From Rhizobium sp. (lineage in GTDB: Bacteria > Pseudomonadota > Alphaproteobacteria > Rhizobiales > Rhizobiaceae): a DNA stretch of 46,808 bases. Both the position numbers and the translations under genes were made by a program. The stretch lies in contig JARXAK010000048.1 of NCBI GenBank assembly GCA_029865885.1, positions 1 through 46,808 on the forward strand. The letters are read 5' to 3'. Shown here piece by piece: positions 2,519 to 13,241 of the stretch. Under the pieces are notes generated by a model. That model ran no database searches. It was not told the origin of the DNA and worked only from the letters and a program-made list of their open reading frames with translations. Within the stretch, counting starts at the first letter, position 1, and the number at the start of each line of letters is the position of its first letter.

Positions 2519-3466
2519 TTAGAGGAAACGGGCGCGCCAGGCCTCAAGCGCTGCGAGCGACACGCCGATCCCGCCGCAGACCTCGATGAGCGGTGCCTTG
2601 TAACGCGATAGCAGATCGACATGAACGTCAGCCACGGCGAGCGCTGCGCCACAGGCCGGCTCGACGAGGATCCGCTGGGCATCGGCGAATTTCAGGCAGG
2701 CCGCAACGGCCTCGGCGTCGGTCACCGTGACGCTTTCGATCGGATGCGTTTCAACCAGATCGAAGACATGTTGCGCGACCTGGCGCGCACCGAGCGAATT
2801 GGCGATCGAGGTGATGGCCGGGAGCGTCACACGTTCCCTGGCGACAACCGCGGCGTTCAACGAGGCGGCACCTTCCGTCTCGACCGCAATGACGGGGATC
2901 TCGCGCAGTCCGTTGCGCCTGAGACCCTCGACGATACCGGCGAGCAACCCGCCACCGCCAACGCTCGTCACGACGCAGTCGAACGCGACACCGGCCTTGA
3001 CCACTTCGTCGATCAGGGTCGCGTGACCTTCCCAGAGCAGCGGATGATCATAGGGGTGGACATAGGCCGCCTTGCGTTCGGCCGCGAGGGCCACCGCATG
3101 GGCATTCGCCTCGTCGAAGACGGCACCATGCACCAGGACATTGGCGCCCGTTGCAGCAATCCGGGCACGGACCTCGGCGGAGGTGGTTTCCGGCACCACG
3201 ATGGTCACGGGGACACCGAGCGCCTTGCCGGCGACGGCGGCCGCGATGCCGGCATTGCCGCCGGAGGCGCAGAAGATCTCGCGCGCCCCTTTGGCGACTT
3301 CGTGCTGGCAGAGCAGGCCGACGCCGCGCAGCTTGAAGCTGCCGGATGGCTGAAGGGCGTCGAGTTTCAGCCATAGCGGCAGGCCGCTTTTGCTGTAGTC
3401 GGCTGCGGTGCGCAGGAGTGGCGTTTCGATATGAAGCGGAGAAAGCGGCATGGGGCACTCGAACAT
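2519..3466 (-). CDS. PLP-dependent Ser/Thr dehydratase-like enzyme
   Basis: A fold-type II pyridoxal-phosphate enzyme, probably deaminating L-threonine or L-serine to a 2-oxoacid. Visible are the Schiff-base lysine motif GSFKLRG and the glycine-rich phosphate loop VGGGGLLAGI. A C-terminal ACT regulatory domain, as in biosynthetic IlvA, is absent, so a catabolic or hydroxyamino-acid lyase is more likely. ATG 3466 (MFECPMPLSP) and ATG 3451 (MPLSPLHIETP) are both possible starts, and neither has a clear ribosome site. The same frame stays open back to 4495, but there it is only antisense to leuB. It ends head-to-head with the leuD terminator. Confidence 0.85.
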   Translation of the reverse strand: MFECPMPLSPLHIETPLLRTAADYSKSGLPLWLKLDALQPSGSFKLRGVGLLCQHEVAKGAREIFCASGGNAGIAAAVAGKALGVPVTIVVPETTSAEVRARIAATGANVLVHGAVFDEANAHAVALAAERKAAYVHPYDHPLLWEGHATLIDEVVKAGVAFDCVVTSVGGGGLLAGIVEGLRRNGLREIPVIAVETEGAASLNAAVVARERVTLPAITSIANSLGARQVAQHVFDLVETHPIESVTVTDAEAVAACLKFADAQRILVEPACGAALAVADVHVDLLSRYKAPLIEVCGGIGVSLAALEAWRARFL

Positions 3467-3628
3467 GGTAGAGGGATGCCGTGTTTTGGACCTCGAAACC
3501 TTCAGGGTCAACCATCCCTGCCGCTTGGGCAAGCGCAGCAAACCGTACCGTTTCCGGCCTATCTCGCTTGAAAAGGCCCTGTCCCGCGCGTAAGAAGCCG
3601 CGACTTCTTTTTCGAGTGGAGGGTTTCC

Positions 3629-4741
3629 ATGACGGCTCGCAATCTTCTCCTGCTGCCCGGTGACGGCATCGGCCCCGAGGCCATGGCCGAAGTCCGCAAG
3701 ATCATCGCCTATATGAACGAGGCGCAGGGCGCCGGCTTCGTTACCGACGAAGGTCTGGTCGGCGGTTCCGCTTATGATGCGCATGGGGCAGCCATTTCCG
3801 AAGCCGATATGGCAAAGGCGCTCGCCGCTGACGCCGTGCTCTTTGGTGCCGTCGGTGGTCCGAAGTGGGATGACGTGCCTTACGAGGCTCGCCCGGAAGC
3901 CGGCCTGCTGCGTCTGCGCAAGGATCTCGAACTCTTCGCCAATCTGCGTCCGGCGATCTGCTATCCGGCGCTTGCCAATGCCTCGTCGCTGAAGCCGGAA
4001 CTGGTCGAGGGTCTCGATATCCTGATCGTCCGCGAGCTGACCGGTGGCGTTTACTTCGGCGAGCCGAAGACCATCACCGATCTCGGCAATGGCCAGAAGC
4101 GTGCCGTGGATACGCAGGTCTATGACACCTACGAGATCGAGCGCATCTCTGCCGTCGCCTTCGAACTGGCCCGCACCCGCAACAATGCCGTTTGCTCGAT
4201 GGAAAAGCGCAACGTCATGAAGTCGGGCGTCTTGTGGAACCAGGTCGTGACCGCGATCCACAAGGAGAAGTTCTCCGACGTCAAGCTCGACCACATGCTG
4301 GCCGATGCCGGCGGCATGCAATTGGTTCGCGCGCCAAAACAGTTCGACGTCATCGTCACCGACAATCTGTTCGGCGACATGCTCTCCGACGTTGCCGCCA
4401 TGCTGACCGGCTCGCTCGGCATGCTGCCGTCCGCTTCGCTCGGCGCGCCGGATGCCAAGACCGGCAAGCGCAAGGCGCTTTACGAGCCCGTGCATGGTTC
4501 GGCACCTGACATCGCCGGCAAGGGCATCGCCAACCCGATCGCGATGATCGCCTCCTTTGCGATGTGCCTGCGCTACTCCTTCAACATGGTCACGGAAGCC
4601 GATCGCCTCGAGAAGGCCATCGCCAACGTGCTCGACAAGGGCATCCGCACCGGCGATATCATGGCCGAGGGTTGCCGTCAGGTCGGCACGGTCGAAATGG
4701 GTGATGCGATCCTTGCAGAGTTCAAGGCGCTTTCGGCCTGA
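3629..4741 (+). CDS. leuB: 3-isopropylmalate dehydrogenase
   Basis: An NAD-dependent oxidative decarboxylase that makes 4-methyl-2-oxopentanoate, the third step of leucine synthesis. The 370-residue length is normal. Visible are the N-terminal [11 protein letters not shown], the Arg-containing substrate loop [27 protein letters not shown], the metal-binding [10 protein letters not shown] and the NAD-binding [22 protein letters not shown] precedes the ATG. The 5' region from 3467 carries a weak hairpin (AGAAG/CTTCT) with a T-run just before the ribosome site, which could be incidental. Confidence 0.97.
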
Positions 4742-11216: not shown

Positions 11217-11237
11217 CTTTGCGATCGACGCGTCTAA

Positions 11238-11327
11238 TCCCTCCGCCGGTGTTAACCGGATCAGGTTCCGCGGGTTGGCATCGCTGCCTCTCAGCATTCC
11301 GGTCGTCTAGGATCGGAAGGCACCCCG
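11238..11327 (-). promoter_or_regulatory. TPP riboswitch (THI box)
   Basis: Read on the minus strand, the segment holds the conserved TPP aptamer pieces in order: GGGGTGCC, GCTGAGAGG, AACCCGCGGAACCTGATC, then GGTTAACACCGGCGGAGGGA. The CUGAGA and ACCUGAUC cores that contact the pyrimidine and pyrophosphate are intact. It lies 62 bases before the thiB start and so controls thiBPQ. Confidence 0.96.
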
Positions 11328-11456
11328 TTAGAGCAGTTCTCAGATAGCGCGCCGGCTGTGTGAGCGCAAGGTGGGGACAATTCACCGCATCGTCACAGCC
11401 ATGAGGAAATTGACACTTTGCCTGTGTTACAAGGATATCGGGATATGTGAGAATCG

Positions 11457-13241
11457 GTGCGCATGGCAGGCTTGCAGTCGAACGGCATGAACGAAACGGA
11501 CCGCGTCGTCGCCGAGGTCGAGGCCAGTCTCAGCCGTCAGCTGGGCATGGCGCTGGACAGCTTCTGGAAATCCGATGCCCGCAACCGCATTCTCGGCTTT
11601 GCCTTTGCCCTGGTCGTCGTGATCCTCGCCACCGTCTATGGCACCGTCCAGCTCAATCACTGGAACGCACCCTTCTACAATGCGCTTGAGCGTCGGGATT
11701 TGCCGGCGTTTCTGACCGAGCTGCGCAACTTCGCGATCATTGCGGGCGTGCTGCTGGTGCTGAATGTCGTGCAGGCCTGGCTGAACCAGATGACAGCGCT
11801 TCACATGCGCGAGGGGCTGTCGCGTGACGTGGTGGACCAGTGGCTGAATGGGGCGCGGGCCTACCGGCTTTCGGTTTCGAGCCCGCTTGGTGTCAATCCC
11901 GACCAGCGGCTGCATGAGGATGCGCGCAAGCTTGCCGAAATGACGACGTCGCTGTCGATCGGTCTGTTCAATGCGACGATCCTGCTCGTCAGCTTCATCG
12001 GGGTTCTCTGGGGCCTGTCCAGCGCGTTTACCTTCAGGATTGGCGACTGGAGCTTCCAGATCCCGGGCTACATGGTCTGGGGTGCGCTCATCTATGCGCT
12101 CGCCGCGTCGCTGCTCAGCCAGCTGGTCGGACGTAAGCTTTCGCGGCTGAATGCCGATCGCTACGCCCGCGAGGCGGATCTGCGCTTTTCGCTGATGCGC
12201 GCCAACGAGAACCTCGAGGCGATCGCGGTTACGCGCGGTGAGGCGACCGAGCGGCAGCATATCCATGATTCGCTTGATGGGGTGCTGATGTCGATCCGCC
12301 ATCTGGCATTGGCGCTCACCAATCTTACCTGGGTAACGGCCGGTTTCGGATGGCTTGCGATCATCGTGCCGATCCTGATTGCCTCACCCGCCTATTTTGC
12401 CGGGACCATCTCCTTTGGCGGCCTGATGATGGCCGCTGCCGCCTTCACCCAGGTCTATTCGGCCTTGCGCTGGTATGTCGACAATTTCGGCCAGATCGCC
12501 GACTGGCGCGCAGCCCTGATGCGGGTCACTGTGCTCCGAGCCGCGCTGACCACCATGAGTGAAAACGAGGGCGGCGCGGGCCGGCTGACGCTGGCGCGGA
12601 GCGAAGATGGCACGCTCAGGCTGGACGGTCTCGAAATCTGCGTCCGCGTCAACGGCGATGCCTGTGAGAGTGCCTTTCATCTCAAGGAAAGGGATGTGGT
12701 GATTTCCGCTGGCGACCGCGTGATGGTCAATGGCGACCAGGGCGTCAACCGAAAGCTGCTCTTCCACGCCATGGCCGGGCTCTGGCCCTATGGCGAGGGA
12801 CGCATCCTGCTGCCGGAGGACGAACTCGTCTTCGTGCCGCAGGCAAGCTATCTGCCCGAAGGCCGGTTGCGCAGCCTTCTGACCTATCCATCGCTTTCTG
12901 CGCAGGTGGATGACGCAGCCCTGGTCTCTGTCCTGCAAAAGGTTGGCCTCGACGAATTTGCCCGCCGTCTCGATGAAAAGGCACGCTGGGAGCGGATCCT
13001 CGACAAGGACCAGCAGATGGCGCTGGCTTTCGCCAATATCCTGCTCCGGAAACCGCGCTGGCTGGTGATGCAGGATATTCTGGAAGGGCTGGAGCCGGAA
13101 ACCGAAAGCCGGCTCACGACAATCCTGTCGACCGATCTTGCCGGGACGACCCTGATCTATCTTGGCCGGTCCCACGCCTTTGCCAATGCAACAGGGGCGA
13201 GGGCCGTTCATCTGGAGAAGTCAGGACACGCTCAGGCCTGA
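11457..13241 (+). CDS. ABC_membrane_2-type transporter with degenerate ATPase domain
   Basis: A 594-residue full-length protein of the YddA / SbmA-BacA-related group. About six membrane segments (residues 35-340) carry the family core ([43 protein letters not shown]). The C-terminal nucleotide-binding domain keeps its fold landmarks ([20 protein letters not shown]), but every catalytic motif is altered. Walker A reads GDQGVNRKL (from residue 426) instead of GxxGxGKS/T. The signature reads LDKDQQ (from 515) instead of LSLGEQQ. Walker B ends MQD (538-540) instead of LDE, the D-loop is EGLE, and the switch His is replaced by Arg (571). The frame is intact, so this is not ordinary decay. The start is GTG 11457; ATGs at 11463 and 11487 are alternatives. 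Substrate is unknown. Confidence 0.85.

Follow-up and report, generated by a model that had tools for sequence, protein, structure and literature searches.

The gene, its domains and its neighborhood

The window (the whole stretch of DNA analyzed, 46,808 nucleotides of Rhizobium sp. contig JARXAK010000048.1) carries at 11457–13241 (+) an ExsE/YddA-type ABC half-transporter with a pseudo-nucleotide-binding domain (pseudo-NBD). The frame runs uninterrupted over 594 codons from a GTG start, with ATG codons at 11463 and 11487 as alternative starts. The transmembrane domain (TMD; residues 40–360, 11574–12536, +) is under strong purifying selection and matched the Pfam families ABC_membrane_2 (PF06472; E 1.3e-36, 126.9 bits, cut-off 24.4) and SbmA_BacA (PF05992; E 2.4e-23, 83.5 bits, cut-off 24). 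An earlier note on this DNA had claimed both the unbroken 594-codon frame and a membrane half of the ABC_membrane_2/SbmA-BacA-related group, and the open reading frame and the Pfam matches bear it out. The C-terminal domain (residues 406–588, 12672–13220, +) gave no match to Pfam ABC_tran at E≤1. NCBIfam ABC models aligned inside residues 411–570, Rv1819c aligned with residues 79–569 (E 3.9e-51), and ABCD-family structures aligned with the C-terminal part as well. Rv1819c was also the best Foldseek match of the predicted monomer, with residues 23–590 aligned, and the two proteins are 25% identical over 551 aligned residues. These alignments and the confidence of the structure prediction (AF2 pLDDT 78–91) place an ABC-fold NBD on the same chain as the TMD, and the domain is predicted to keep its fold. 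Judged by its sequence, the window protein is an intact half-transporter of the YddA/BclA/ExsE type, from the ExsE branch.

A TPP riboswitch (Rfam RF00059, 65.5 bits) lies at 11221–11337 (−), before apparent thiBPQ genes on the minus strand (names from translations). The transporter gene starts divergently 120 bases from the riboswitch and has an ABC-F gene and an apparent thiN on its opposite flank. A thiamine function was considered and rejected as unproven; thiB stands directly beside the gene only in the near genus, and none of the window neighbors searched for stays adjacent to the transporter throughout the relatives. The genome from which the window derives comprises 4.0 Mb and is 86.7% complete. 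The closest named genome is that of Peteryoungia aggregata, whose protein is 96% identical (from a comparison of the top 80 of 94 loci found in GTDB species).

Loss of the ATPase motifs

Alignment of the NBD revealed substitutions at nearly all positions on which ATP hydrolysis depends. The former Walker A motif (12732–12761, +) does not fit the pattern GxxGxGK[ST], as R432 replaces the Lys and K433 the Ser/Thr, while G426, the old Walker A Gly, is kept. The place of an LSGGQ-like signature is taken by LDKDQQ (12999–13016, +) with acidic D516 and D518. The former Walker B reads LVMQD (13062–13076, +), with Q539 for the Asp, at a position that drifts among relatives, and D540 for the catalytic Glu. 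The former D-loop reads EGLE (13083–13094, +), with E546 for its Asp, and the former H-loop reads YLGRS (13158–13172, +), with R571 for the His. The Q-loop Gln, Q462 (VPQ; 12840–12842, +), is retained. The claim of the earlier note that all motifs had been lost thus stands for Walker A, the signature, Walker B, the D-loop and the H-loop, and not for the Q-loop; for Walker B it had rightly named the lost Glu and missed the loss of the Asp.

When the gene was scanned in all three forward frames, no match to the Walker A, signature, Walker B or H-loop patterns emerged. An alternative alignment that restores the motifs, which the earlier note had named as an argument against its own reading, was therefore set aside. 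Sequencing error or a frameshift was ruled out by the same losses in independent genomes: three proteins that are 96, 95 and 94% identical (L032, L033 and L034) share R432, K433, D516, D518, Q539, D540, E546 and R571. Canonical motifs in close relatives, a second counterargument raised at the outset, occurred in none of the 33 same-genus sequences fetched whose NBD is complete.

It is established in ABC biochemistry that hydrolysis is very unlikely without the Walker A Lys, the Mg-binding Ser/Thr, the signature, the catalytic Glu and the H-loop His. ATP hydrolysis by the window protein is accordingly judged very unlikely on its residues. Since a single chain lacks either half of the composite site, a homodimer would have no functional site at all. 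We place the protein in the YddA/ExsE branch by descent, although it lacks the sequence features that define an ATPase. Nucleotide binding may persist despite the loss of these motifs, and the Q-loop Gln is still present.

Selection on the two domains and conservation of the old motif positions

The ratio of nonsynonymous to synonymous change (ω) was estimated per domain from NG86 counts; the pairs are not independent, and values for distant pairs are rough because dS above 1 is near saturation. In the group of the window protein, the median ω was 0.037 for the TMD and 0.115 for the NBD in nine close pairs (dS<1), and ω was 0.077 and 0.166, respectively, in 57 more distant pairs. Two further groups of proteins with the same replacement motifs (hereafter neo-motif proteins) gave comparable figures, the second with 0.027 (TMD) and 0.057 (NBD) in 43 close pairs and 0.064 and 0.075 in 48 distant pairs, the third with 0.039 and 0.129 in 91 pairs. 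Canonical Paraburkholderia proteins gave 0.078 and 0.071 (136 pairs). The ratio of NBD dN to TMD dN was 3.75, 2.39 and 4.06 in close pairs of the three neo-motif groups, and 2.54 and 1.47 in distant pairs of two of them, against 1.11 in the canonical control. The NBD is thus under weaker constraint than the TMD, yet far from neutral. Elevated dN/dS had also been named as grounds for doubt, and the values found were low (NBD ω about 0.06–0.17).

The altered motifs themselves are well preserved. N425, G426, D427, R432, D516, D518, E543, E546, Y568, G570, R571 and S572 (11 replacements plus the retained G426) all occur in 30 of the 33 same-genus sequences with a complete NBD, L224, which is cut, standing outside this set. 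The other three carry conservative swaps: E516 in L004, D543 and A572 in L006, and E518 in L007. A motif set common to the genus, together with the low NBD ω, argues that the loss is not recent decay. Mean column entropy within the genus (29 rows) was 0.45 at the old motif positions and 1.05 in the rest of the NBD (p 0.0002), and within the neo-motif clade (35 rows) 0.98 and 1.62 (p 0.0004), compared with 1.32 and 1.54 (p 0.10) in 26 partly degenerate proteins, all p values being from a permutation that ignores phylogeny. Eight canonical proteins gave 0.44 at the motif positions and 1.20 elsewhere. The exceptions in the genus were Walker B, with an entropy of 1.23, and the Q-loop, which was intermediate (0.83).

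The pattern suggests that the old motif sites underwent loss, drift and then re-fixation as a new surface. The description of the domain as vestigial in the earlier note fits poorly with this result. Apart from Walker B, the former catalytic sites vary less than other NBD positions, which speaks for a domain put to new use and against a leftover. Its broader contention, that a kept fold implies selection for a role without ATP hydrolysis, is likely to be right, given the predicted NBD fold and purifying selection on a domain without hydrolysis motifs.

Distribution and possible partners

A match to the gene or a relative at E≤1e-20 was found in 169 of the 394 genomes of the family, the source genome included. 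Among same-genus genomes, 56 of 63 (again including the source genome) had a match at E≤1e-8; in G772 and G780 this was only a weak BacA-type match, leaving 54 carriers. The gene is cut at a contig end in three carriers (G803, G806 and G816) and broken in a fourth, G781, where pieces matching residues 2–186 and 381–589 are left on contig C18 (164194–165338) and the middle is missing. Since the gene was not found in nine of the 63 genomes and is broken in one, it is dispensable. Elsewhere in the family, small genomes of 1.9–2.4 Mb (loci L132, L133 and L163) retain full-length, strongly degenerate copies of the transporter.

The earlier note had also suggested that the protein may need a separate ATPase partner. 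The source genome (86.7% complete) shows no full-length paralogue and no free-standing NBD of the family. With the best 21 candidates scored per genome, 47 of the 54 same-genus carriers likewise have no full-length paralogue at E≤1e-60, while seven have one or more with 28–33% identity; G790 and G802 have weaker paralogues with 24% identity. The suggestion is thus unsupported in the form given, as far as paralogues and NBDs of this family go.

A graded series of motif loss in Hyphomicrobiales

The window gene is not alone in having lost the motifs; such losses are common across the ExsE-like family in Hyphomicrobiales. Trees were built from 101 non-redundant TMD rows and again from 104 rows including other families of the order. 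The base consists of canonical proteins from Paraburkholderia, Acetobacteraceae, Roseicella, Prosthecomicrobium, a Bdellovibrionaceae MAG and the order-mates L180 and L181. The 90 full-length rows of the first tree comprise seven canonical proteins, 36 neo-motif proteins (the window protein included) and 47 otherwise degenerate proteins, where the 36 were defined by locus and three full-length proteins nested in the neo-motif clade (L148, L151 and L172) were counted among the 47.

In the 47 otherwise degenerate proteins, the Walker A Lys persists in 34, the following Ser/Thr in 39, the Walker B Asp in 39 and the catalytic Glu in 26, with all four present in 18. Ser516 and Gly518 of the signature are both present in one of these proteins, and a His stands at the H-loop position in two. 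These counts suggest that the signature and H-loop were lost first, followed by Walker A and Walker B. The neo-motif proteins are far more uniform: the Walker A Lys is Arg in 36/36, position 433 is K, R or H in 36/36, the H-loop His is Arg in 36/36, and the signature is acidic at 516 in 35/36 and at 518 in 36/36, with Q462 kept in 32/36. L148, L151 and L172 have Q or H in place of R432 and of R571, and two of the three group with the second lineage of TMD-only proteins (see below) in both trees. Scores against Pfam ABC_tran follow the same gradient, from 73.8 and 67.8 bits for the canonical L085 and L095, through 33.9, 33.2 and 33.5 bits for the partly degenerate L174, L076 and L089, to 19.6 bits for L057 of the neo-motif clade, which is below the 25-bit cut-off, and no match at E≤1 for L045, L003 and P0001.

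Another family of the order (L197, L201 and L205–L207) has lost all six scored features in a different manner, with Ser516 still in place. The Walker A position of L197 reads DRTGSGHGAL, and the loss in these five loci is apparently independent of that in the clade of the window protein.

Deletion of the NBD

Seventeen fetched loci (L115–L131) encode a TMD alone, of 351–385 residues, and their existence shows that the TMD can be maintained on its own. A search with an NBD profile gave no NBD-like frame of at least 40 residues at E≤1e-3 in any of these loci over a search span of 2.6–3.7 kb downstream, or only 138 bases before the contig end for L116. As a control, the same profile did detect the frameshifted NBD of L114. 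This locus (3222–4592, −, in the same-family genome G057) encodes a partly degenerate NBD, interrupted by a frameshift close to the Q-loop. No free-standing NBD of the family was found at E≤1e-12 in the 13 genomes with TMD-only members; five of them had no match to the NBD query at this threshold, and the matches in the others sit in open frames of 572–714 residues.

The TMD-only proteins occupy two places in the tree, one group branching with the partly degenerate proteins and the other from within the neo-motif clade, and parsimony requires two changes for NBD loss. A single TMD-only clade was not rejected by the AU test with seven rows on a quick tree (p 0.126) and was rejected with 13 rows on a careful tree (p 0.0005), where the second set of 57 rows was hand-picked after the first result and the second TMD-only group has long branches. 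Two losses of the NBD are likely, if not proven. The sequences as a whole point to a series from canonical proteins, through loss of the signature and H-loop and then of Walker A, to the neo-motifs of the window protein and to deletion of the NBD, probably twice. We found no prior account of such an erosion series, of a doubly degenerate homodimeric ABC transporter or of degenerate ExsE NBDs in the titles and opening lines of abstracts of the open-licence PMC matches listed, and the word 'degenerate' is absent from the main text of PMC13316013 and PMC12003926.

The glutamate ladder

The glutamate ladder of SbmA, as set out in PMC13316013, consists of E193, E203, E269, E276, E287 and E378. Alignment places E154 (11916–11918, +), T164 (11946–11948, +), N232, E239 (12171–12173, +), N250 (12204–12206, +) and D349 (12501–12503, +) of the window protein at these positions, and E239 is Glu in 171/171 aligned proteins. 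The ladder is thus incomplete, as in YddA, and acidic only at E154, E239 and D349. SbmA, which belongs with BacA to the proton-driven SLiPT family, has a full ladder and no NBD, whereas the window protein has an NBD and three non-acidic ladder positions; it scored 50.6 bits against the NCBIfam SbmA equivalog model (NF008306), for which the cut-off is 492. With three of six positions acidic, the proposal that the protein is driven 'as SbmA/BacA are' could not be upheld in that form.

Gain of an SbmA-like ladder along with NBD loss was not found either: the 17 TMD-only relatives have A, N, T or V at position 164 and S, N, I or V at 250, and the equivalent of E154 is lost in nine of them. No proton path is therefore evident. 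The source genome separately encodes a TMD-only protein of the BacA/SbmA type (L002; genome G000, contig C243, 4997–5914), which has five of the six ladder glutamates and N at the E269 position. Positions D124, R134, H153 and H268 are acidic or basic in the degenerate groups and not in the canonical reference, which comprises only seven divergent proteins, and nothing was drawn from them.

Comparison with related transporters

A gene on pSymB of Sinorhizobium meliloti encodes a protein 46% identical to the window protein over residues 23–594. It is flanked by exsH, a PAS protein and regulators on one side and by queE/D/C, galE and exoZ on the other. The annotation says only ABC transporter; the gene is taken to be exsE from the exsH-to-exoZ gene order. 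This ExsE shares the architecture of the window protein and likewise has no canonical signature or H-loop His (LGDDEQ and IGR), but it retains both Walker A (GAGKT) and Walker B (IDE), which have been lost in the window protein, a member of the neo-motif clade. YddA, BclA and Rv1819c resemble the window protein in TMD family, domain order and fold. E. coli YddA, in contrast, has all six scored motif features, and transport by BclA requires ATP hydrolysis, according to PMC12003926. The same study reports that ExsE of P. zundukense complemented to an intermediate degree for gentamicin resistance and barely or not at all for NCR247, and describes it as partly restoring gentamicin sensitivity (PMC12003926). 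This result was set aside as evidence for the degenerate type, as the one P. zundukense homologue analyzed here (L236, on a plasmid of strain A18/3m), which may or may not be the gene used, has canonical motifs.

The individual substitutions have parallels in exporters with one degenerate site. TAP, TM287/288, MRP1, CFTR and ABCG5/G8 show losses of the same types in Walker A (K to R in ABCG5/G8), the signature, Walker B and the H-loop, as reviewed in PMC7756269. These transporters keep one canonical site, at which they hydrolyze ATP (same review), whereas the window polypeptide has lost motifs of both site halves.

A model for transport without ATP hydrolysis

We put at about even the chance that the window protein forms a homodimeric transporter that no longer hydrolyzes ATP and acts as a gradient-driven carrier or a facilitator, with the pseudo-NBDs rebuilt as a non-catalytic dimer; the mechanism is inferred. 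Transport would be gradient-driven or facilitated, with no claim of protons, and the two pseudo-NBDs would persist as a cytoplasmic dimer by which the transmembrane halves are held or gated. In ABC dimers, the Walker A and H-loop of one subunit face the signature and D-loop of the other across the interface. In the window protein, R432 and K433 of the old Walker A and R571 of the old H-loop would present basic side chains to an acidic signature (D516, D518) and D-loop (E543, E546), and such opposite charges suggest that salt bridges between the subunits may stand in for the ATP sandwich. The charge complementarity of the old Walker A and signature seems to be mostly explained by one ancestral transition. 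Several observations count against the model, namely the incomplete ladder, the relaxed NBD, the deviation of L148, L151 and L172, the dispensability of the gene and the retained Q-loop Gln.

That Gln, kept in most neo-motif proteins, also fits a nucleotide-gated facilitator, in which the NBDs would bind ATP or another phosphorylated ligand through R432 and K433 without hydrolyzing it, and binding would open or close the path. The invariance of R432 and of a basic residue or His at 433 in the 36 neo-motif proteins (L148, L151 and L172 not counted), the strong conservation of the old motif positions, and the Walker A GKT and Walker B DE retained by S. meliloti ExsE and by 18 of the 47 partly degenerate proteins are all in keeping with this reading. 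A precedent exists in a D-loop mutant of TAP that becomes a nucleotide-gated facilitator, as reviewed in PMC7756269. However, the window protein has neither the Mg-coordinating Ser/Thr nor the catalytic Glu, its acidic signature would stand at the γ-phosphate site, and Walker B position 539 drifts, so we regard nucleotide gating as credible but unlikely.

A role outside transport, as a membrane sensor, scaffold or regulator in the manner of the sulphonylurea receptors among ABC proteins, is quite unlikely. Loss of the catalytic residues with re-fixation of the same positions, and low ω in both domains, would be compatible with it, but the TMD is the more constrained domain (ω 0.03–0.08), TMD-only forms survive, and no searched neighbor remains adjacent throughout. 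We consider it very unlikely that the protein works as a heteromer, joined to a canonical half-transporter or to an NBD encoded separately, like the exporters with one degenerate site: the paralogues in seven same-genus genomes, the weaker ones in G790 and G802 and the existence of canonical Rhizobiales relatives (L236, L237) leave room for such a heteromer, against which stand the lack of a full-length paralogue in the source genome and most carriers, the lack of free-standing NBDs in genomes with TMD-only members, and the loss of former motifs on both faces. Ordinary decay under way, with a pseudo-NBD that has no role and a gene drifting to NBD loss, would accommodate an NBD dN 2.4–4 times that of the TMD in close pairs, the NBD deletions in two sister lineages, the renewed departure of L148, L151 and L172 from the neo-motif and the missing or broken gene in some same-genus genomes, but is highly improbable in view of the low NBD ω, the near-complete retention of the twelve checked residues and the greater conservation of the old motif positions.

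Evolutionary implications

SbmA has been argued to derive from a YddA-like ABC transporter, with separation of TMD and NBD as a speculated step (PMC13316013). The same paper mentions one Rhizobium genome in which a YddA gene encodes the TMD alone and its operon contains no NBD, as well as separate TMD and NBD genes elsewhere. We tentatively suggest, while holding it to be somewhat short of probable, that in the ExsE-like family of Hyphomicrobiales an ATP-driven ABC importer has been turned, for a second time and independently, into a transporter that works without burning ATP, with the steps still visible today. The conversion would have passed through loss of the signature and H-loop by point changes, loss of Walker A, a charged, ATP-free NBD dimer interface as in the window protein, and deletion of the NBD in two lineages.

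The family bears on how primary (ATP-driven) and secondary (gradient-driven) transporters interconvert. If the model holds, the window protein would be a homodimeric ABC-type carrier without any working nucleotide site, and its living intermediates would show a possible route to secondary transporters of the SbmA/BacA type. The family offers another route than separation of TMD and NBD, in which the ATPase would be eroded in place, and the dead domain reused and then lost. Genes annotated as ABC transporter ATP-binding protein/permease, that of S. meliloti ExsE included, need not encode the full catalytic machinery, or any of it, and the motif series supplies natural variants for direct tests.
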